Shown here piece after piece: positions 3,439 to 52,188 of a DNA stretch of 64,000 nt; the stretch's first letter is position 1, and every line of letters starts with the position of its first letter. The stretch is taken from assembly GCF_001238295.1 (NCBI RefSeq), contig NZ_LGXZ01000006.1, positions 62,001 through 126,000 on the forward strand. The letters run 5' to 3'. Under the pieces are notes generated by a model. That model made no database searches. It saw only the letters and a list, made by a program, of their open reading frames with translations, and was not told the origin of the DNA. The DNA comes from Ruegeria sp. 6PALISEP08. GTDB taxonomy: Bacteria; Pseudomonadota; Alphaproteobacteria; Rhodobacterales; Rhodobacteraceae. Both the position numbers and the translations under genes were made by a program.

Positions 3439-6400
3439 ATGATGCGTGAAATACCCGGCGCAGCGAGTGGTATTCTCAGTTATTTCACGCGCCATCGGAC
3501 CGTTGCCAATCTACTGTTGCTGGTGATGCTAGTCCTAGGTGCTGCAGCAATCCCTAACATGCGGGCACAATTCTTTCCGGACGTTATTCTGGAACGTGTC
3601 GATGTAAGCGTCACGTGGGATGGTGCCGGGCCGGAGGACATGGATGCCGGTATTGTGCAATTGCTGGAACCTGCGCTGCTGGCTGTTGAAGGGGTGACCA
3701 GCACCGAGGCCAGCTCACATCCTGGATGGACCCGTGTCAGACTGGAGTTCGAGCCAAACTGGGACATGTCCCGCGCGGTTGAGGATGTCAGAACTGCCGT
3801 AGACGGTGTGTCGGACCTGCCGGAGGGATCCGAAGAGCCCGAGATCAAACGCGGTGCATGGCGGGATCGAGTAACGGATCTTGTCATCAGCGGTCCCTCT
3901 GATACCAACCAATTGGCGAAGATGACGGACGAGCTGATCAATCGCCTGTTCACTGCCGGTGTAACTCGCACGACAATCCGGGGCATCGCGGCGCCGCGGA
4001 TCGTTGTCGAAGTCACCACGGCGCAGTTGATCGCCAACGACATTTCAATGGCAGATATAGCAACAGCGATTGGAGCCGAGGTAAACACTGATCCTGCCGG
4101 AGCAGTGGAGGGCGCGGGCGCGCGTATCCGGGCTGGGACTGAAAAACGCACACCCGAGCAAATCGAAGGAATTGCACTGCGGACAAATGCCGACGGATCG
4201 AAACTCAAGGTCGGGGACGTAGCAACTATCCGGGTCGAAGGGGTAACGCGGTACCGCAGTTACTTTGTGGCCGACGACCCGGCCATGTCCATCAGGGTAG
4301 ACCGGTCAAATCTGGGCGATGCGATAGAGATTCAGCGTACGGTCGAAGACGTTGCGCGTGAGATGCAGGCCAGCTTGCCTAAAGGTGTGAAAATCGATCT
4401 GATCCGTACCCGAGCACAGGCCATTACTGATCGATTGAACATCCTTGTGGATAACGGCTTGATGGGCCTTGGCCTTGTTGTCTGCCTGTTGTTTCTGTTC
4501 CTCAATGCACGCATCGCCTTTTGGGTTGCGGCGGGTATCCCGGTGGCGATGTCGGCGGCCATTGCGCTGATGTATCTGGGAGGGCTGTCGCTGAACATGG
4601 TTTCGCTGTTTGGCCTGATCATTACCCTTGGTATCGTGGTGGATGACGCCATTGTGGTGGGCGAACATGCCGATTTCCGTGCCCGGCGTCTGGGCGAAGC
4701 GCCTGTGGTGGCTGCTGAACGTGCGGCCCGGCGCATGGCGATGCCCGTTCTGGCAGCGACCGTGACAACCGTGATCGCGTTTTTTGGCCTGACCCTGGTG
4801 GGCGGTCGGTTCGGAGAGATGATCCGCGATATTCCTTTTACGGTCATTGCCGTTCTGATCGCGTCGCTAGTCGAATGCTTCCTGATCCTGCCCAATCACA
4901 TGGCGCACGCCATTGCGCATTCGGCCAAGGAACACTGGTATGACTTGCCAAATCGTGTCGTCAATCGCGGTTTCCGTTGGGTTCGGGACCACCTGTTCCG
5001 CCCTCTTATCGCTTGGGTGATTTGGGCGCGCTATGTGGTTGTGGCAATGATGATCGTTGTGTTGGCCAGCCAAGTCGCGCTGTTCATTCGCGGTGATGTG
5101 AACTGGCGTTTTTTCAATGCACCCGAACGTAGTTCGGTGAGCGGCGGCTTTATCATGCGCGAAGGCTCGACCCGTTCAGATACGCTTGAAATGATGCGCA
5201 TGGTGCAGGAAGCGGCCAACGAGCTGGGCCAGATCTATGAAGAGCGTCATGGCCGCAATCCGATTGACTACGTCCTCGCCGAGGTTGGCGGGAACGCAGG
5301 CCGACAGCTGGCCGCCGCGGATGGTAAGGATGGAACTTTGTTGGGGGGGATCTCGATCGAGTTGATCGATGCTGATCTGCGTCCTTATTCAAGTTTTGAG
5401 TTTGTGGGCGAGTTGCAGGAATTTGCGCCACGCCATCCCAAACTCGAAGTGATCAGCTTTCGGGGGTGGCGCTCCGGGCCTGGGGGCGATGCCATCGATG
5501 TGCAGTTTTACGGCTCTGACGTGAATGTTTTGAAGGCCGCGTCAGAAGACATGCAAACCGAGCTTTCGAAGTTCTCTGAAGTCTCGGCGCTCGAGGACAC
5601 TCTGGCCTATGACAAGGAAGAATTTCTTCTGGACCTGACCGCACAGGGACAAGCGCTGGGCTTTCGGATTGAAACATTGGGGCGGGCCCTACGCAATCGG
5701 TTGAACGGTATCGAGGCGGCAACATTCCCCGATGGGCCGCGCAGTGCCGAGATTCGTGTGGAACTGCCCGAAGGTGAACTAACGGCAGATTTCCTTGAAC
5801 GCACGCTCATGCGCTCGCCCGATGGGGTCTATGTGCCACTGGCCGACATCGTTTCGGTCGAGCGTAAGTCGGGATTTTCGACCGTTCGGCGTGAGAACGG
5901 TCTGAGGGTGGTTTCGGTCATGGGCGATATTTCCGAGGATGACCCGGCGCGTGCGGCTGAAATCGAACGTGTGATGCAAGACGAGATTCTGCCCAACATC
6001 GCTGCGGAACGCCAGGTCGAGTGGCGCATGTCCGGTCTGAGTGAGCAGGAGAACGAGTTCCTGGCCGAGGCACGCACCGGGCTGATCCTGTGTCTGACCG
6101 GAATCTACCTTGTGCTGGCCTGGGTGTTTGCAAGCTGGTCGAGGCCGTTGGTGGTCATGGCAATAATCCCCTTTGGCCTGGTGGGGGCGATCTGGGGCCA
6201 TTACATCTGGGATGTGCCGCTCAGTATGTTCACGGTGGTTGGATTGCTGGGCATGACCGGGATCATTATCAACGACTCGATTGTTCTGGTGACCACAATA
6301 GATGGGTATCAGCAGGACCGTGGGTTGGTTCCTTCGATTGTCGAGGGCACGGCTGACAGGCTACGGCCCGTGATGTTGACCACGCTGACCACGGTTCTTG

Positions 6401-6840
6401 GGCTTGCGCCGCTGCTGTATGAGGGCTCGCAACAGGCACAGTTCCTTAAGCCGACCGTGATCACTCTGGTCTATGGGCTAGGATTTGGGATGTTGTTGGT
6501 CCTGATCCTCGTGCCTGCTCTGCTAGCGATCCTCAATGATTTTGCGCGTCCAATGACTGCCATGCGCCGTGCCGCGCGCGCGCCGGACCGAGTGGTTCGG
6601 GCGGCATTGATGGGCACTGTTGCCACCTTGGCGATTTGGTTTGGTTTGACGATGATCTGGCCCGCTGTCACCGGCGTGCCGATTGAGGCGTTGCAGGGTC
6701 TCTACCCCGGCGCGGACGGTATTGCGGCTTTGCAAATGGGGTTGGGCGCATTCCTGGCCGGAGCCTTACCGATTGTGGCGCTGAGCGTTTTGGTGTCTGG
6801 TTTGCTTTATGTCCGGATCGCCCGGTCAGCAGGTGCCTAA
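3439..6840 (+). CDS. RND efflux permease (AcrB/HAE-type) with C-terminal extension
   Basis: This is a proton-driven inner-membrane pump of 1133 residues. It shows the N-terminal FTRHRTVANLLLL helix, the duplicated large periplasmic loops, and the VVDDAIVVGEH segment near residue 402 with the paired aspartates used for proton relay. The second half repeats the topology (IINDSIVL near 950). The canonical core ends near residue 1031. About 100 further residues contain two extra hydrophobic segments (about 1054-1074 and 1107-1129), which most RND pumps lack. It is co-transcribed with the adaptor upstream and ends four bases into the convergent NUDIX gene. The exported compounds cannot be predicted. 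Confidence 0.92.
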   Translation: MMREIPGAASGILSYFTRHRTVANLLLLVMLVLGAAAIPNMRAQFFPDVILERVDVSVTWDGAGPEDMDAGIVQLLEPALLAVEGVTSTEASSHPGWTRVRLEFEPNWDMSRAVEDVRTAVDGVSDLPEGSEEPEIKRGAWRDRVTDLVISGPSDTNQLAKMTDELINRLFTAGVTRTTIRGIAAPRIVVEVTTAQLIANDISMADIATAIGAEVNTDPAGAVEGAGARIRAGTEKRTPEQIEGIALRTNADGSKLKVGDVATIRVEGVTRYRSYFVADDPAMSIRVDRSNLGDAIEIQRTVEDVAREMQASLPKGVKIDLIRTRAQAITDRLNILVDNGLMGLGLVVCLLFLFLNARIAFWVAAGIPVAMSAAIALMYLGGLSLNMVSLFGLIITLGIVVDDAIVVGEHADFRARRLGEAPVVAAERAARRMAMPVLAATVTTVIAFFGLTLVGGRFGEMIRDIPFTVIAVLIASLVECFLILPNHMAHAIAHSAKEHWYDLPNRVVNRGFRWVRDHLFRPLIAWVIWARYVVVAMMIVVLASQVALFIRGDVNWRFFNAPERSSVSGGFIMREGSTRSDTLEMMRMVQEAANELGQIYEERHGRNPIDYVLAEVGGNAGRQLAAADGKDGTLLGGISIELIDADLRPYSSFEFVGELQEFAPRHPKLEVISFRGWRSGPGGDAIDVQFYGSDVNVLKAASEDMQTELSKFSEVSALEDTLAYDKEEFLLDLTAQGQALGFRIETLGRALRNRLNGIEAATFPDGPRSAEIRVELPEGELTADFLERTLMRSPDGVYVPLADIVSVERKSGFSTVRRENGLRVVSVMGDISEDDPARAAEIERVMQDEILPNIAAERQVEWRMSGLSEQENEFLAEARTGLILCLTGIYLVLAWVFASWSRPLVVMAIIPFGLVGAIWGHYIWDVPLSMFTVVGLLGMTGIIINDSIVLVTTIDGYQQDRGLVPSIVEGTADRLRPVMLTTLTTVLGLAPLLYEGSQQAQFLKPTVITLVYGLGFGMLLVLILVPALLAILNDFARPMTAMRRAARAPDRVVRAALMGTVATLAIWFGLTMIWPAVTGVPIEALQGLYPGADGIAALQMGLGAFLAGALPIVALSVLVSGLLYVRIARSAGA

Positions 6841-16369: not shown

Positions 16370-16690
16370 ATACAGCAAACCGTAGAGGGTGGCGGCCCCG
16401 GAAAAGATGGCGGCCAACACGTTTTTGCTGATCACACCTACAACCAACGCAACTGCTGCCGCTGACATCCGGGGAAGGTCAGGCTGCCCCTCGGTCGCCG
16501 AGGGCCAGACAACCAATGGTGCGATCAATGCAGGCAGAATCGCAACTGCCGTGTACCGCAGGTGACGCAGCAGCCAGGTCGGCATCGGGCGGTCACCTAC
16601 AAGGCCGATAAAGACAAATCGCAAGGCATAGCTGCCTATGGCCAGGCCTATGATGATGGTCCAGATGGTGACAGGATCGGTCTGGGTCAT
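16358..16690 (-). CDS. azlD: AzlD family branched-chain amino-acid exporter small subunit
   Basis: A 110-residue protein with about four hydrophobic helices and the AzlD pattern: GSYALRFVFIGL near the start, RYTAVAILPALIAPLVV in the middle. The start ATG at 16690 overlaps the azlC stop (ATGA). A longer frame continues upstream but only reads azlC out of frame. AzlC and AzlD together export branched-chain amino acids or analogues, as in the BrnFE pair. The 3' end overlaps the convergent lipoprotein gene by 12 bases. Confidence 0.88.
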   Translation of the reverse strand: MTQTDPVTIWTIIIGLAIGSYALRFVFIGLVGDRPMPTWLLRHLRYTAVAILPALIAPLVVWPSATEGQPDLPRMSAAAVALVVGVISKNVLAAIFSGAATLYGLLYLLS

Positions 16691-17403
16691 CGTTGCAACT
16701 TTCTGCGCTCTAGGATCAGTTCCGCTTGTGCTCCGGCGATCATTCCCGCAGACCCTGCAATCAGCAGGCCCAGATTGAACGGGATTACGACGGTCAACAG
16801 CGACACTGCGATGGCCACCAGCGCCGCGACCACATGTGCAAAGGTCCGCATCATCGGCCCGATCATGGCCAGAAATGTGATTGGCAGGGCGAAATCCAGC
16901 GCCCAGCTTTCCGGAATCTGCGCGCCCAGTACTGCGCCTAGGTAGGTGGCAAGAATCCAGAGCGGTGTGATCGGCGTGACCGAACCCACGAAATAAGCCA
17001 TGCGTTGCGGCACCGACAGGTCTGGCTCTTTCTCGAACCGCACAATGGAGCAGGCATAAGACTGGTCCACGGTCAGATAGGCGGCAAAGGCACGCTGCCA
17101 CATCGGTGCCGCACCCAGATAAGGTGTCAGCGATGCGGAGTACATCGCCATACGTAAATTCACCGCCAGCGCTGAGATTATGATAATCGCCGTCGGCGTG
17201 TTGTCCTGCAGCAGTTGTAATGCCGCAAACTGTGCCGCTCCGGCAAAAACGGTCGAAGTAAAAGCCATTGTCTGAACAATGGTTAGCCCGGCTTCGGTCG
17301 CGAATACACCGAACAACAGGCCAAAGGGCACGGCGACGAAGATAAAGGGTGTCCCGTCGCGAAAACCTTTCCAGAAGTAAGACTTGGATGTGGCAGAGGC
17401 CAT
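16687..17403 (-). CDS. azlC: AzlC family branched-chain amino-acid exporter large subunit
   Basis: A 238-residue membrane protein with the AzlC signature block FRDGTPFIFVAVPFGLLFGV near the N-terminus and FAGAAQFAALQLL and LAVNLRMAMYSASLTP further on. It forms the large subunit of a two-component exporter with AzlD, whose gene overlaps its 3' end by four bases. The start codon at 17403 lies on the same CATG palindrome as the likely start of the divergent fdhD-mobA gene, so the two genes share 5' ends and their promoters must overlap the opposite coding regions. Confidence 0.9.
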   Translation of the reverse strand: MASATSKSYFWKGFRDGTPFIFVAVPFGLLFGVFATEAGLTIVQTMAFTSTVFAGAAQFAALQLLQDNTPTAIIIISALAVNLRMAMYSASLTPYLGAAPMWQRAFAAYLTVDQSYACSIVRFEKEPDLSVPQRMAYFVGSVTPITPLWILATYLGAVLGAQIPESWALDFALPITFLAMIGPMMRTFAHVVAALVAIAVSLLTVVIPFNLGLLIAGSAGMIAGAQAELILERRKLQR

Positions 17404-18991
17404 GGCTAAATCCTATGGTGATGCCCGCAGCAGTATCTGTCTTGGGAAGGGGTTGCAATTGGCCACGGAAATCGACCTGTCGGACTATCTTGTCGCCCCT
17501 GATCCGGGCTCGGACCGCCTTACCCGGGCGGTTGAAGGTGTGGACCAGAACGGCGAGGCCAGCCAGATTTCAGTGGTTGAAGAACGCCCGTTGACGATCT
17601 TCCTCAATTCTCAGGAAATCGTGACGGCGATGACCATCGGCGACTATCCTGAATATCTGGCTTTGGGCTTCCTGCGCAATCAGGGGATGCTGTTGGCGGA
17701 TGATGAGATTATCCGCGTGGACTATGACGACGATCTTGAAACCGTTGTTGTACGAACAGCGCGTGAGACATCGTATGAGGATAAGCTGAAGAAGAAGACC
17801 CGCACCAGTGGTTGCGCTGTCGGCACTGTCTTTGGCGACATGATGGAGGGTCTTGAGGACGTGCAGCTGCCGCAGGTGCAGGTGCGTACGTCGTGGCTGT
17901 ACGATCTTGCCTCCAAGATCAATCGTACCCCGTCGCTTTATCTTGAGGCTGGCGCAATCCACGGCACGGTCCTTTGCCGCGAAAATCGCCCGCTGGTCTA
18001 CATGGAGGACGTGGGCCGCCACAACGCTGTCGACAAGATCGCAGGCTGGATGCTGTCAGAAGGCGAGGTGGCCGAGGACAAGATCCTTTACACCACCGGT
18101 CGCCTGACATCCGAGATGGTGATCAAGACGGCAATGATGGGCATCCCGGTTCTGGCTTCCCGTTCTGGCTTCACCGCCTGGGGTGTCGAGATCGCGCGCG
18201 AGGTTGGGTTGACGCTGATCGGTCGGATGCGCGGGCAGCGCTTCGTCTGCCTGTCGGGCGAAGATCGCCTGCTGCGCGACGTAGACCCGTCAACCGTTGC
18301 GGTAGAAGACAAGAAACATCGCCGGAAGAGTGCCATGAATAACCTTCTCAAGAAACCGCTCGGTATCATCCTCGCAGGCGGGCAGGCCACCCGGATGGGC
18401 GGCGGTGACAAGGGCTTGCTGCAAATAGGTGGGCAGAACCTGCTGTCCCATGTCATCGACCGTCTGTCTCCGCAGGTGAGCAATCTGGCGTTGAATGCCA
18501 ATGGTGATCCAGAGCGCTTCAGCGACCTGAACCTGCCCATCCTACCCGACACGATCGAAGGTTTCGCCGGGCCTCTGGCCGGTGTGCTGGCCGGGCTGGA
18601 CTGGGCGGCAGCGCAGGGGGCGGACAGCATTGTGACTGCTGCCGCTGATACACCGTTCTTTCCGCGCGACTTGGTGGCGCGACTGCAAGAGGCCGCGGAA
18701 GGGCAGACGTATCCTCTGGTTTTGGCCACGACCCCACGCACGGGAGCTGAGGCGCTGAAATCCGGCGGGGGCAGGCGGGTCAACCGACACCCGACCTTCG
18801 GCCTCTGGCCCGTGGCGCTGCGCGACGATCTGCGTGCGGCGCTGACAGATGGGCTGCGCAAGGTGGTGCTGTGGACTGACAAACATGACGGGCGAGAGGC
18901 GTTGTTCGATGCCGACCCGTTTGACCCGTTCTTCAACGTCAACACGCCAGAAGATCTGGACCGCGCCCGAATGTTGTTGGAGCAGGCATGA
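17402..18991 (+). CDS. FdhD-MobA fusion: sulfurtransferase plus Mo-cofactor guanylyltransferase
   Basis: One uninterrupted frame of 529 residues (start ATG 17402; an earlier ATG at 17384 is also in frame). Residues 1 to about 305 are FdhD, with VVEERPLTIFLN, TAMTIGDYPEYLALG and SGCAVGTVFGD. Cys138 is present, but the second Cys of the E. coli CxxC is Gly here. FdhD passes sulfur to the molybdenum cofactor of formate dehydrogenase. From Met312, MobA begins: GIILAGGQATRMGGGDKG is its GTP-binding motif, and GRRVNRHPTFGLWP and FFNVNTPEDL follow. MobA makes the guanine dinucleotide cofactor. GGAAG before ATG 18335 could also allow a separate MobA. Confidence 0.85.
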   Translation: MAKSYGDARSSICLGKGLQLATEIDLSDYLVAPDPGSDRLTRAVEGVDQNGEASQISVVEERPLTIFLNSQEIVTAMTIGDYPEYLALGFLRNQGMLLADDEIIRVDYDDDLETVVVRTARETSYEDKLKKKTRTSGCAVGTVFGDMMEGLEDVQLPQVQVRTSWLYDLASKINRTPSLYLEAGAIHGTVLCRENRPLVYMEDVGRHNAVDKIAGWMLSEGEVAEDKILYTTGRLTSEMVIKTAMMGIPVLASRSGFTAWGVEIAREVGLTLIGRMRGQRFVCLSGEDRLLRDVDPSTVAVEDKKHRRKSAMNNLLKKPLGIILAGGQATRMGGGDKGLLQIGGQNLLSHVIDRLSPQVSNLALNANGDPERFSDLNLPILPDTIEGFAGPLAGVLAGLDWAAAQGADSIVTAAADTPFFPRDLVARLQEAAEGQTYPLVLATTPRTGAEALKSGGGRRVNRHPTFGLWPVALRDDLRAALTDGLRKVVLWTDKHDGREALFDADPFDPFFNVNTPEDLDRARMLLEQA

Positions 18992-19479
18992 GGGTCTTTG
19001 GCGTCACCGGGTGGAAGAATGCCGGCAAAACAGGGTTGATGGAACGATTGGTGGCCGAGATCACAGGCCGGGGCTTTACGGTCTCGACGGTTAAACATGC
19101 GCATCACAGCGTCGATGTGGATCAGCCCGGCACCGACAGTCACCGCCACCGCATGGCAGGGGCCAGCGAAGTTCTGCTTGCCTCAGGTCAGCGTATTGCC
19201 GTGATGCAGGAGCTGCGCGGTGCACCAGAGCCTGCATTGGATGAACTGCTGTCACGGCTTTCACCGGTCGACCTCGTGCTGATCGAAGGCTTCAAGCGTG
19301 AAAACCACCCCAAGATCGAAGCGTTTCGGGCCGAGGCGGGCCATACGCTAATGGCCCCCGAGAACACGACCATACGTGCTGTAGCCAGCGACACTCCGCT
19401 GGATTTGGACCGCGCGGTTATTGATCTGAATGACACCACAGAAATTGCGGACTTCATCCTGAAAGAAGTCGGTTTGTGA
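18988..19479 (+). CDS. mobB: Molybdopterin-guanine dinucleotide biosynthesis protein B
   Basis: A 163-residue P-loop GTPase of the MobB family. The Walker A motif is GWKNAGKTG at 8-16, followed by the conserved TVKHAHH.VD block (34-43), the GTDSHRHR.AGA segment and LVLIEGFKRE near 94-104. MobB assists MobA in forming or delivering molybdopterin guanine dinucleotide. The start overlaps the stop of the FdhD-MobA gene by four bases (ATGA) and its own stop overlaps the next start (GTGA), so the cofactor genes form one translationally coupled operon. Confidence 0.93.
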   Translation: MRVFGVTGWKNAGKTGLMERLVAEITGRGFTVSTVKHAHHSVDVDQPGTDSHRHRMAGASEVLLASGQRIAVMQELRGAPEPALDELLSRLSPVDLVLIEGFKRENHPKIEAFRAEAGHTLMAPENTTIRAVASDTPLDLDRAVIDLNDTTEIADFILKEVGL

Positions 19480-21545
19480 GCCTTTTCCAGACCTTTGCGA
19501 TGGTGGATTGGTCTGGCGGAAACGACACCGGGCCGACCCCGCGCAAAGATGCGATCTGGGCCTGTATTGTGCGCGAAGGGTGCTTGTTGGAACCCGAATA
19601 CCTGCGAAACAGGTTGGTTGCTGAACAGTGGCTTGAGGCCCTGATCCGCACCGAGCTTGATGCAGGCCGCCGCCTGTTTCTGGGGTTCGATTTCCCGTTT
19701 GGCTATCCGGCCGGATTTGCCCGCGCGATGACGGGTGCGGACGATCCCCTGGCTTTGTGGGACTGGTTCGAACGGCATATTGAGGATACGCCTAAGGCAA
19801 ACAACCGTTTTGATCTGGCAGGTCAGATCAACCTGAATTTCGGAGGCAACGGCCCGTTTTGGATGAACGGTCTGCGTCGTGACATCGACGGTCTGCCACG
19901 CAGGAAAACCGACTATACCAACCCCTTCCCGGACCGCCGTGTCGTGGAAACCCTGGCAAAGGGCAGCTTTACCTGCTGGCAGATGGCAGGCGCGGGGGCT
20001 GTTGGTGGACAAGTGATGATGGGGCTACCGGTTCTAAATCGGCTGCGTCATCGCTTTGCCGGGCAAGTCGCGGTCTGGCCGTTCCAGCCGCAGGGAACAC
20101 CCGTCGCCTTTGTAGAGATTTGGCCATCTCTGACCCTCGGAGCGCCGCCAGCAGGGCGGATCAAAGATGCCTGGCAGGTCGAACAGGTCACCTTGACTCT
20201 GTCACGTCTGTCAGAGCAGGAGTTGAAAGCGCAAATGAAAGTCTCAGCGGCAGAGGAAGGTTGGATATTGGGTGTAGCTCAGGACAAGCCGAACATAGCC
20301 CCACCCCCGTTGCGCAACGATTGCTTTGCGCTGCCCGCTGGGGTCGAGTGGACACCTGTGGATGAGGCATTGACCTTTCTGCGCGACAGATTGCACCCGA
20401 TCACATCTGTTGAAACGCTTGCACTGACCAAGGTGAGTGGGCGCATTCTGGCCGAGGATGTGATCGCCCAGCGTTCGAACCCGCCCCAGCCCAACACTGC
20501 GGTGGACGGGTTCGGGTTCGCAGGCCCCGTCCCAGTTGGCACGCAGGTCATGCCTCTGGTTGACGGGCGCGCGGCGGCGGGGATTCCATTTGAGGGTCAC
20601 GTGCCCGAAGGTCGGGCTTTGCGTGTCCTGACGGGCGCGGCGCTGCCTGATGGGGTGGACACGGTTATTCTGGAAGAGGATGTCACGGTCAAAGATGGCC
20701 ATATTGCCTTCCATGGCCCGCTGAAAAAGGGGACCAACACACGGCGCGCGGGCGAAGATGTTGCGGCCGGTGATATGGCTTTGCCCGTCGGGCGTCGGTT
20801 GACACCTGCCGATCTTGCGTTGATGTCCGCTGTGGGAATCGCCGAGGTAAATGTGCGCAAGCCACTGCGCGTGGCGGTGGTTTCAACCGGTGATGAGCTG
20901 GTCGAACCCGGAGACATTGCCGGTCCAGGGCAGATTTTCGACGCCAACCGCCCGATGTTGCTTTCATTGATCGAGCGGATTGGGTTCGTGCCCGTTGATG
21001 TGGGGCGTGTTTCGGATGATCGGGATGCGTTGCGGGACCGGTTGGACCAGGCCGCAGGTCAGGCCGACGTGATTCTGACCAGCGGAGGTGCGTCTGCGGG
21101 CGACGAAGATCACGTGTCCGCCCTGTTGCGTGAAGCGGGGGCGATGCAGCACTGGCGGATTGCGTTAAAGCCGGGACGTCCGTTGGCCTTGGGTTTGTGG
21201 TCAGGCGTGCCGGTGTTTGGCCTGCCGGGCAACCCGGTGGCTGCCATGGTCTGCACGCTGATCTTTGCACGCCCCGCGCTGGGCCTGATGTCGGGCGAAG
21301 GTTGGGTGGATCCGCAAGGGTTCGAGGTGCCTGCCGCTTTTGAGAAACGCAAGAAACCCGGCCGCCGTGAATACCTGCGTGCAAGGGTGCGGAATGGGCG
21401 GGCCGAGGTGTTCCATTCGGAAGGATCGGGCCGGATCAGTGGGCTCAGCTGGGCCGAAGGATTGGTCGAAATCGAAGATGGCGCGCGGCACATTAAGCCG
21501 GGCGACCCAGTACATTTCATACCGTATGGGAGCTTTGGTGTTTGA
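19476..21545 (+). CDS. Fusion of an uncharacterised N-terminal domain with MoeA molybdotransferase
   Basis: A 689-residue protein. Residues 1 to about 270 form a domain with MVDWSGGNDTGP at 9-20 and LGFDFPFGYPAG at 69-80; acidic residues at strand ends suggest a DUF429-like/RNase H-type fold, which is inference. From about 280 it is MoeA: NTAVDGFGFAG with the conserved Asp344, VVSTGDELVEPG near 468, TSGGASAGDEDHV near 535, LKPGRPLALG and GLPGNPVA near 583. MoeA inserts molybdate into adenylylated molybdopterin. A normal MoeA is about 400 residues, so the N-terminal part is a true addition. The GTG start overlaps the mobB stop (GTGA). Confidence 0.87.
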   Translation: MSLFQTFAMVDWSGGNDTGPTPRKDAIWACIVREGCLLEPEYLRNRLVAEQWLEALIRTELDAGRRLFLGFDFPFGYPAGFARAMTGADDPLALWDWFERHIEDTPKANNRFDLAGQINLNFGGNGPFWMNGLRRDIDGLPRRKTDYTNPFPDRRVVETLAKGSFTCWQMAGAGAVGGQVMMGLPVLNRLRHRFAGQVAVWPFQPQGTPVAFVEIWPSLTLGAPPAGRIKDAWQVEQVTLTLSRLSEQELKAQMKVSAAEEGWILGVAQDKPNIAPPPLRNDCFALPAGVEWTPVDEALTFLRDRLHPITSVETLALTKVSGRILAEDVIAQRSNPPQPNTAVDGFGFAGPVPVGTQVMPLVDGRAAAGIPFEGHVPEGRALRVLTGAALPDGVDTVILEEDVTVKDGHIAFHGPLKKGTNTRRAGEDVAAGDMALPVGRRLTPADLALMSAVGIAEVNVRKPLRVAVVSTGDELVEPGDIAGPGQIFDANRPMLLSLIERIGFVPVDVGRVSDDRDALRDRLDQAAGQADVILTSGGASAGDEDHVSALLREAGAMQHWRIALKPGRPLALGLWSGVPVFGLPGNPVAAMVCTLIFARPALGLMSGEGWVDPQGFEVPAAFEKRKKPGRREYLRARVRNGRAEVFHSEGSGRISGLSWAEGLVEIEDGARHIKPGDPVHFIPYGSFGV

Positions 21546-35866: not shown

Positions 35867-36723
35867 TTAAACAGGGTTAAGTACCTGACTTTGATATTTT
35901 TCCTGCTTCCAGGGGGCCGAGACGCTGGGCGCGCCACACAGGTAGCCTTGCAGGCAATCCACACCAACGGACATCAGGAACGCCGCATCCTCTTGAGTTT
36001 CGACCGATTCGGCAGTGACCAGAATCTCAAACTCCCGTGCCACTGCGAGCAAGGCGCGCACCAGTGTCTGATTGTCGGGATTGTTACTAATGCCCCGAAC
36101 AAATTGACCGTCGATCTTGGCGGCATCGAAAAAAACTTACGAAAGTGACGGAAACTGAAATTGCTGGCACCAAAATCGTCAAGTGCAAAGGCGATACCGC
36201 GATCCTGTAGGCGATCCATAAAGTCGATGACCAATTCGGGCACCTGCATCGCCGAGCTTTCAGATATTTCAAGGATCAGCCGCTCACCCAATGCGGAGTC
36301 CCGCTTGAGGAACCGATCAAGAATAGCCGAACATTTCGAATATCCGATCGATCGCGCCGACATATTGATCGACAGACGAACCTCAGGGTTCCGCACCAGA
36401 GTTCGCAGCCCAAACTCCAGCGCAACACAATCCAGGTCCCGGCCAATGGGGGTATTCTCAACCTGTGGCATGAACTCGTGCGCAGGGATGACCCGCCCCG
36501 TTTCATCGAGGACGCGAATGAACCCTTCGTAAAACGCATTACCATTCGGAGGATGTGTTTGCACGACGGGCTGAAAAGCCAGCTTGCACTGTTTGTGTTT
36601 CACCGCATCGGTTGCCATCTGAACAACCGAATGATCACGGGTCGACACCGCGGCGTTCAGCGGGTTTTCCGATCCATCGGGCAGATTAGCGAGTTTCTTG
36701 TTTCCCATAGCGCCGATTCCCAT
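35867..36723 (-). pseudogene. EAL-domain c-di-GMP phosphodiesterase gene with one frameshift
   Basis: Two overlapping minus-strand frames together encode a full EAL domain. The upstream frame (36723 down) contains YEGFIRVLDE at the EAL motif position, NMSARSIG and FALDDFGASN. The downstream frame, ending at 35867, contains AESVETQEDAAFL and VDCLQGYLCGAP. They join at a run of seven Ts (minus strand, 36129-36135): eight would restore RKFFFDAAKIDGQFVRG with the conserved catalytic Lys. The EAL motif reads EGF. All other catalytic positions are intact, so the frameshift is recent, a sequencing error, or translated by slippage. A start at 36708 is equally possible. Confidence 0.82.
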
Positions 36724-50198: not shown

Positions 50199-50777
50199 AT
50201 GCAAAAGGCGATTCAGAATCGTACAATCAAAACCCGCGCCAAGCTTCTCTCGGCTGCTGAGGCGGTTATCCAAAGTGATGGCTACCAAGCTTTGCGAGTG
50301 GAAGAAGTGGTAAAGGCGGCGGGCGTCGCCAAGGGCACTTTCTTTGCGCATTTCAACGACAAGGATGCGCTTATGGAAATCCTGATCGGTGAAAGATTGA
50401 ATGCGTGTCTGGATCAGGCCGAAGCCGGAACACCGCCCAAAACCGTTCCTGAGATCATCGCGGCACTTGAACCGGCGCACAGCTTCATGACGTCCGAGCG
50501 ATACGTATTCGATCTGTTGATCAGGTATTCCGGCGCGACTGCTGTCGCAGACATAGGCCCGATTGCCTATTGCTTTGAGCGATACTTCCGTGTCGTGATG
50601 CTGTGGCTTGAAGCTGCGGACATGCGCAAGGACGTGTCATCCGAGCTTTTGGCCGAAGGTGTGCAGGCCTTTGCAATTCAGGCCATGTCGTTGAGGTTTT
50701 GCGCGTTGCATTCAGCAACGACATTCACCGACAGGCTCGAGACTTATCTGGATGCGTGGCTGACCCCGACAGGCTGA
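50199..50777 (+). CDS. TetR family transcriptional regulator
   Basis: A 192-residue regulator from the ATG at 50199; a GTG at 50184 would add five residues and overlap the spacing after the last operator. The N-terminal HTH is ALRVEEVVKAAGVAKGTFFAHFNDKDAL. The C-terminal ligand domain is helical with no known signature. It probably represses the divergent NAD(P)H oxidoreductase through the three operators and relieves repression on binding a quinone-like or electrophilic ligand. Its stop lies 23 bases from the convergent lpd stop. Confidence 0.9.
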   Translation: MQKAIQNRTIKTRAKLLSAAEAVIQSDGYQALRVEEVVKAAGVAKGTFFAHFNDKDALMEILIGERLNACLDQAEAGTPPKTVPEIIAALEPAHSFMTSERYVFDLLIRYSGATAVADIGPIAYCFERYFRVVMLWLEAADMRKDVSSELLAEGVQAFAIQAMSLRFCALHSATTFTDRLETYLDAWLTPTG

Positions 50778-50799
50778 TGGGCTGCCGGGGTCAAAACTC

Positions 50800-52188
50800 T
50801 TAGCTGTGAATCGGGCCGTCCCCGCAAGCCAACGCAGCCTCACGAACGGCTTCGGAATAGGTCGGGTGCGCGTGGCAGGTCAGGGCCAGATCTTCAGCCG
50901 AAGCACCGAATTCCATCGCAACGCAAACCTCGTGGATCAGATCACCAGCGGCCGGGCCGATGATATGTGCACCCAGAATGCGGTCGGTTTCCTTGTCGGC
51001 GAGGATTTTGACGAACCCATCAGAGGCAAAGTTCGCCTTGGCGCGCCCATTTCCCATGAACATGAACTTGCCAACCTTATAGGCGCGGCCCTGTTCCTTG
51101 AGTGTCGCTTCGGTTTCACCCACATTGGCAACCTCGGGCCAAGTATAGATCACTCCCGGAATGACGCCGTAGTTTACATGGCCATGCTTACCTGCAACCT
51201 GTTCGGCTGCGGCCATGCCCTCGTCTTCGGCTTTGTGCGCCAGCATCGGACCTTCGGTTACGTCGCCAATGGCATAGATGCCCGGCACGTTGGTTTGCCA
51301 GTCGGCACCCACCTTGATCTGGCCGCGTGGGGTCATCTCAACGCCCAAAGCGTCCAGCCCCAACCCGTCGGAATAAGGCTTGCGTCCGGTGGCGACCAGC
51401 ACGGTATCGGCGTCGATCACATGCTCGCTGTCATCCTTGAGCAGCTTGTACGTCACCTTGGCCTTGGTCTTGGTGGCTTCGGTCTTTTGCACCGCCGCGC
51501 CCATGACAAAGTTCAGGCCCTGCTTCTTCAGGATGCGCTGGAACGTTTTCTGTACCTCGGGGTCCATGCCTGGCGTGATTTCCTTGAGGAACTCGATCAC
51601 CGTGACCTCGGCACCGAGCCGCTGATAGACCGAGCCAAGTTCCAGCCCGATCACGCCCGCGCCGATCACAACCATTTTCTTCGGGATCTTGCCCAGAGAC
51701 AACGCGCCGGTCGAGGTCACGACAACCTTTTCATCTACGTCTACACCCGGCAGCGAAGATGGCTCGGAACCCGAAGCAATGATGATATTCTTGGTGGCGT
51801 GGACCTCGTCACCCACTTTGACCTGACCAGCGGCAGGGATCGAACCCCAGCCTTTCAGCCAGTCGATCTTGTTCTTTTTGAACAGGAATTCGATGCCCTT
51901 GGTGTTGCCGTCGATCACCTCGTCCTTATAGGCCTGCATCTGTTTCCAATCGACCGACGGGCTTTTGCCCTTTAGGCCCATCTTGGCAAAGTTATGCTCG
52001 GCCTCGTGCAACTGATGGCTGGCGTGCAGCAGCGCCTTTGACGGGATGCAGCCCACGTTCAGACAAGTGCCACCAAGCGTCTCGCGCCCCTCGACTACAG
52101 CGGTTTTCAGCCCCAGCTGCGCGCAACGGATGGCGCAGACATAGCCGCCGGGACCGGCGCCGATTACAATAACGTCATAGTTTGCCAT
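50800..52188 (-). CDS. lpd: Dihydrolipoyl dehydrogenase (E3)
   Basis: A 462-residue flavoprotein disulfide reductase. The FAD motif is [13 protein letters not shown] (8-20), the redox-active disulfide is GGTCLNVGC (Cys42, Cys47), and the catalytic His-Glu pair is in CHAHPTYSE near 438-446. It reoxidises the lipoyl groups of the 2-oxoglutarate dehydrogenase complex encoded just upstream. AAGGAG lies before the ATG at 52188. It is the last gene of the suc block in transcription order, after the MAPEG gene. Confidence 0.97.

Follow-up and report, generated by a model that had tools for sequence, protein, structure and literature searches.

The analysed stretch, hereafter the window, comprises 64,000 nucleotides of the marine bacterium Ruegeria sp. 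6PALISEP08 (contig NZ_LGXZ01000006.1, positions 62,001–126,000), and carries a molybdenum-cofactor locus in which fdhD runs directly into mobA within a single open reading frame, both genes acting in the completion and delivery of the cofactor. The features of the locus, numbered from the first base of the window, are the following:

16687–17403, − strand: azlC, divergent, its start codon sharing bases with ATG 17402
17402–18991, + strand: fused fdhD–mobA frame, 529 codons plus stop, uninterrupted
17453–17455, + strand: TTG, codon 18 of the frame, the likely real start of fdhD, conserved in all 54 genus loci
17576–18271, + strand: FdhD-NarQ domain, residues 59–290, including Cys138 (Pfam, E 4.9e-74)
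18308–18346, + strand: linker, residues 303–315, with pLDDT under 50
18324–18328, + strand: GGAAG, weak Shine-Dalgarno-like site of mobA, six bases before ATG 18335
18334–18335, + strand: site of the base missing relative to other Ruegeria (DNA alignments)
18335–18337, + strand: ATG, ancestral mobA start by homology with separate mobA genes, now codon 312
18340–18342, + strand: TAA, the stop codon that once ended fdhD, no longer in frame (junction alignment)
18362–18868, + strand: MobA-like NTP transferase domain, residues 321–489 (Pfam, E 2.4e-34)
18988–19479, + strand: mobB (profile matches), overlapping the fusion by 4 nt
19476–21545, + strand: gene of the same operon for an unnamed domain fused to MoeA (profile matches), overlapping mobB by 4 nt

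A preliminary description of this DNA had placed FdhD and MobA in one frame without an intervening stop, which was borne out by the 529-codon open frame and by the Pfam and NCBIfam matches. The Pfam FdhD-NarQ model scored 249.5 bits against a cut-off of 27.2 and was covered from position 1 to 236 out of 237, and the MobA half passed the NCBIfam model TIGR02665 (molyb_mobA) with 192.5 bits (cut-off 151.85). The FdhD half missed both of its NCBIfam cut-offs, the one of TIGR00129 nearly reached (137.1 vs. 140.9 bits) and that of NF001943 at 157.3 vs. 269 bits. A single match to the whole fusion protein and a single FdhD were found in the genome, which comprises 4.46 Mb on 42 contigs. The broad NTP-transferase family matched at 10 places, the second best of which had MocA as its top model, below the cut-off of that model, and lay far under the cut-off for MobA. 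The fused frame is the sole FdhD and the sole MobA copy found in this genome. Further along the operon, the unnamed domain fused to MoeA matched the “unknown domain” part of PRK14495. This second fusion was considered as another novelty and dismissed, since 38 of the 83 loci examined have the two parts in a single frame; in the others they are separate or were not found.

The 5′-end of the frame overlaps the divergent azlC gene, the bases CATG at 17401–17404 being common to the azlC ATG on the minus strand and to ATG 17402 on the plus strand. Translation of fdhD probably starts at TTG 17453 rather than at ATG 17402, because the TTG is found at this position in every one of the 54 genus loci and the frame of one relative (L133) is interrupted by a stop at codon 3, upstream of it. 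In the 14 loci inspected, a stretch resembling GGAAGGGG precedes the TTG. This reading is countered by the ATG at codon 1, which is conserved in 53 of 54 genus loci, but the first codons of fdhD presumably look conserved because they hold the azlC start and Shine-Dalgarno site.

The join between the two halves was aligned at 14 loci. In two of the relatives (L003 and L007) it reads GCC AAT GAG TGA, with the ATG of mobA inside, and in others GCC AAT GGC TGA or similar, while the join of the window, GCC-ATGAATAA, is one base short. The relatives in which the genes overlap by 8 nt have the one extra base exactly before the mobA ATG, and extended DNA alignments with G038 and with G039 showed the same one-base gap at 18335; the alignment with G011 is broken at the join by a spacer and is therefore silent on the gap. 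The absence of one base at the overlap brings the frames of fdhD and mobA into register, and thus the fusion results. The other overlapping pairs in Ruegeria share the operon order, the join sequence and the mobA start codon with the window, but in them the extra base keeps the frames apart and the stop in place, whereas the window has a single frame. Both a GGAAG about six bases before ATG 18335 and a possible internal MobA start at this codon had been proposed earlier. The former is indeed present at 18324–18328 and the latter gained support from homology, as the start codon of the separate mobA genes of relatives is this same codon, which makes it the ancestral mobA start. The Shine-Dalgarno-like site has a score of −4.6 kcal/mol, equal to that at L003 and L007, and free MobA is probably still made from ATG 18335, since the ancestral start sits behind this unchanged, weak site.

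All 54 Ruegeria genomes examined had a match. When the DNA was read locus by locus, fdhD and mobA were fused only in the genome of the window and split in the other 53. In 14 of these 53, mobA lies directly behind fdhD, as judged from the distance between the matched parts, and in the remaining 39 the genes are not side by side (80–300 nt apart in three, 300–700 nt in 16 and more than 700 nt in 20). The ATG of mobA overlaps the fdhD stop in 13 of the 14 side-by-side pairs, in nine of them by the same 8 nt, and stop and start lie within 10 nt in all 14. By geometry, these pairs would count as translationally coupled, co-located starts and stops being a mark of coupling in the available part of PMC3711429, from which the limit of 10 nt was taken. 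Long frames (573–1007 aa) seen in four split relatives (G016, G019, G027, and G032) were rejected as fusions, because the DNA shows a separating stop in each. The spacers between the two genes were also considered as something special and set aside: in the example scanned, the spacer holds a Mem_trans (PF03547) transporter gene (L010:2557–3507). ORFs with a similar start occur in most of the 20 long spacers, and the shorter ones contain short ORFs, some of them membrane-like. The count of fused against split homologs, suggested in the preliminary description as a check, stood at one to 53 in the genus, which speaks against a conserved fusion. Its suggestion of a recent loss of a stop is well supported, as the missing base falls precisely on the overlap and only one genus genome in 54 is fused.

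Searches beyond the genus gave a similar picture. In a family sample of 394 genomes (393 genera), 251 matched at E 1e-100 or better; nine hits among the matches listed span both halves, of which one is the window itself and each of the other eight contains one stop or more. Nineteen of the 385 genomes of a class sample matched at 1e-125, and the 10 hits outside the own genome that span both halves all have a stop. At 1e-85, 40 of 398 genomes of a phylum sample matched, the own genome being the only one with a hit across both halves. No further uninterrupted fusion was therefore present among the listed strong matches in these 394, 385, and 398 genomes, samples that overlap and in which at most three candidate places were scored per genome, so that fusions under these limits would escape. 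In the phylum sample, G127 gave a second hit whose single open frame covers residues 271–526; it was left out of the fusions, because FdhD is encoded in another frame there. Among plasmid records, 166 matched, 17 of them over 80% of the query, and by annotation the 15 best showed no fusion (nine had FdhD and MobA as two genes, one FdhD only and five were unannotated). The searches at genus, family, class, and phylum level thus lend no support to a conserved FdhD–MobA fusion. One other fusion was encountered in a set of 80 named loci (the best 80 of 536, some belonging to genomes also in the genus set), namely in Roseobacter sp. H9 (L033:4974–6482). As in the window, FdhD is followed by MobA in a single uninterrupted frame, but the join differs and the FdhD tail is shortened. 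Judged by sequence, this fusion arose independently.

A single missing base in a public assembly may also be an error of sequencing or assembly, in which case the cell would have normal, overlapping fdhD and mobA genes and the base would be absent only from the record. In favour of an error, both the stop that once ended fdhD and the start of mobA are intact, and a second one-base loss elsewhere in the window disrupts an EAL gene. Moreover, among the 80 named loci one fdhD (L041, about 1922–2876) and one mobA (L098, about 5825–6449) are each split over two frames, so breaks of this kind do occur in public records. In the available part of PMC3711429, singleton frame transitions are treated as indels or sequencing errors. 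On the other side, the gap at the join falls within just two consecutive As, so that a homopolymer error is less probable there. A comparison with G038 over 185.7 kb flagged 15 of the 165 matched ORFs of the relative, and only one clear break of a real gene, that of the EAL gene, was read among them; the first 24 kb of the window differ from G038 by four gaps not divisible by three, of which only the gap at the join alters a conserved gene. The reverse comparison flagged 22 of 168 ORFs, the fusion among them. Judged by position and reading, most of the flagged ORFs appear to be shadow ORFs, and a full check showed that a 572-aa ORF (own contig 151037–152733), which had seemed to be broken, is a shadow ORF too. 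On the G038 side, frame changes were flagged at own ORFs 157308–158357 and 50362–50814.

The EAL-domain gene (35974–36723, − strand) is one base short near 36131–36139 in comparison with G038, G039, and G011. Seven As in a row now stand at this site, the final third of the domain has lost its frame, and the product in the relatives compared has 282 aa. Two one-base changes in about 186 kb fit rare real mutations and rare errors alike, the nearest relatives compared, all of other species, being at dS 0.5 or more. Taking these points together, we consider an error in the record rather unlikely, though it has to be reckoned with, and assume that the base is missing in the cell as well.

We therefore regard it as probable that the fusion is a recent one-base loss at the overlapping fdhD–mobA join and a quirk of this single genome. 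The ancestor would have had separate fdhD and mobA genes in one molybdenum-cofactor operon, with the mobA ATG within the last 8 nt of fdhD but in the other frame. Loss of the base just before this ATG would have put the fdhD stop out of frame, so that fdhD now reads in phase into mobA and the ribosome would make the fusion protein. The internal ATG 18335 would provide some free MobA, and both products would then be present in the cell, the free one serving the other bis-MGD enzymes of the genome.

Several observations suggest that both halves still work. Compared with seven relatives chosen from the 53, dN/dS was 0.042–0.059 for FdhD and 0.060–0.112 for MobA, and these low values indicate that both halves were under purifying selection, although with the nearest relatives at such dS they cannot date the deletion. 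Cys138 aligns with the first loop cysteine of the solved structure 4PDE, which we take to be the essential one, and is invariant in 24 alignment rows; the second loop cysteine is not kept. In the MobA half, the LAGG...RMGG.DKG and NVNTPEDL motifs align with those of the solved MobA 1FR9. The FdhD half would hand sulfur to bis-MGD via Cys138, and the MobA half would add GMP, the two being connected through some 13 flexible residues. The AlphaFold2 model of the fusion had a mean pLDDT of 81.5 and a pTM of 0.54, thus it predicts two confidently folded domains whose relative placement is undefined; the Cys138 loop (residues 132–142), like the linker, has pLDDT values under 50. No sign of a channel between the domains was seen in this model, in which the linker is unmodelled. 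As for the enzymes to be served, genes for a formate dehydrogenase alpha subunit (677.7 bits against a cut-off of 666.25) and for NapA are present in the genome. Since NapA needs bis-MGD, and hence MobA without FdhD, MobA is needed in this genome beyond the enzyme served by FdhD.

The alternative to a recent accident is a selected bifunctional enzyme, in which FdhD would receive bis-MGD from the site of MobA by way of the tether, to the benefit of formate dehydrogenase maturation. The formate dehydrogenase of the genome agrees with it, and so does the separate fusion of Roseobacter sp. H9, which leaves room for a recurrent advantage and in this respect counts against the recent-loss reading. 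Support may also come from GSU0780 of Geobacter sulfurreducens, named FdhD/mobA-2 in the available parts of PMC8691401 and PMC7894505 and FdhD only in that of PMC2725144. The double name suggests FdhD and MobA in one product, a likeness by name alone in a distant organism, and the available parts of the two former papers do not report detection of GSU0780 in their proteomes under the conditions described. In Methylorubrum extorquens, where the two proteins are separate, an FdhD/MobA two-hybrid signal above background is given in the accessible part of PMC13197769, together with a likely essential mobA. Against a selected enzyme stand the single fused genome in 54 of the genus and the absence of a further uninterrupted fusion among the strong matches listed for the family, class, and phylum samples; in addition, the mobA start site is unchanged and the old fdhD stop persists, the model leaves the domain arrangement undefined, and NapA calls for MobA without FdhD. 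No sign of selection for the fusion was found, and we hold a selected enzyme to be highly unlikely.

Channelling of the cofactor, which the preliminary description had offered as a possible benefit, received no direct support, the linker being unmodelled and the domain placement undefined; by analogy with the two-hybrid signal in M. extorquens (PMC13197769, as far as available) it is conceivable. That a real, selected fusion channels bis-MGD from MobA to FdhD while nitrate reductase and the remaining bis-MGD enzymes are supplied with free MobA from the internal start is likewise highly unlikely, but, if true, one gene would be both a dedicated formate dehydrogenase maturase and a general cofactor enzyme.

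The fusion has parallels among known ones. The MobA–MobB, MobB–MoeA, and MoaC–MobA models and, according to the accessible part of PMC8887013, a NifU–FdhD fusion in Pelomyxa likewise unite neighbouring steps in a single polypeptide, with different partners. The three former are curated families, hence recurrent, whereas the fusion of the window is not. Among the papers listed in a literature search, no study of an FdhD–MobA fusion was found. As read from the sequence, the event is an ordinary operon fusion that reveals no new system. It shows in clean form how a one-base change can turn overlapping genes of an operon into a two-domain protein, the former stop and the former start both being recognisable still. 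The locus may also be used as a natural experiment on the effect that tying MobA to FdhD has, if any, on formate dehydrogenase maturation.
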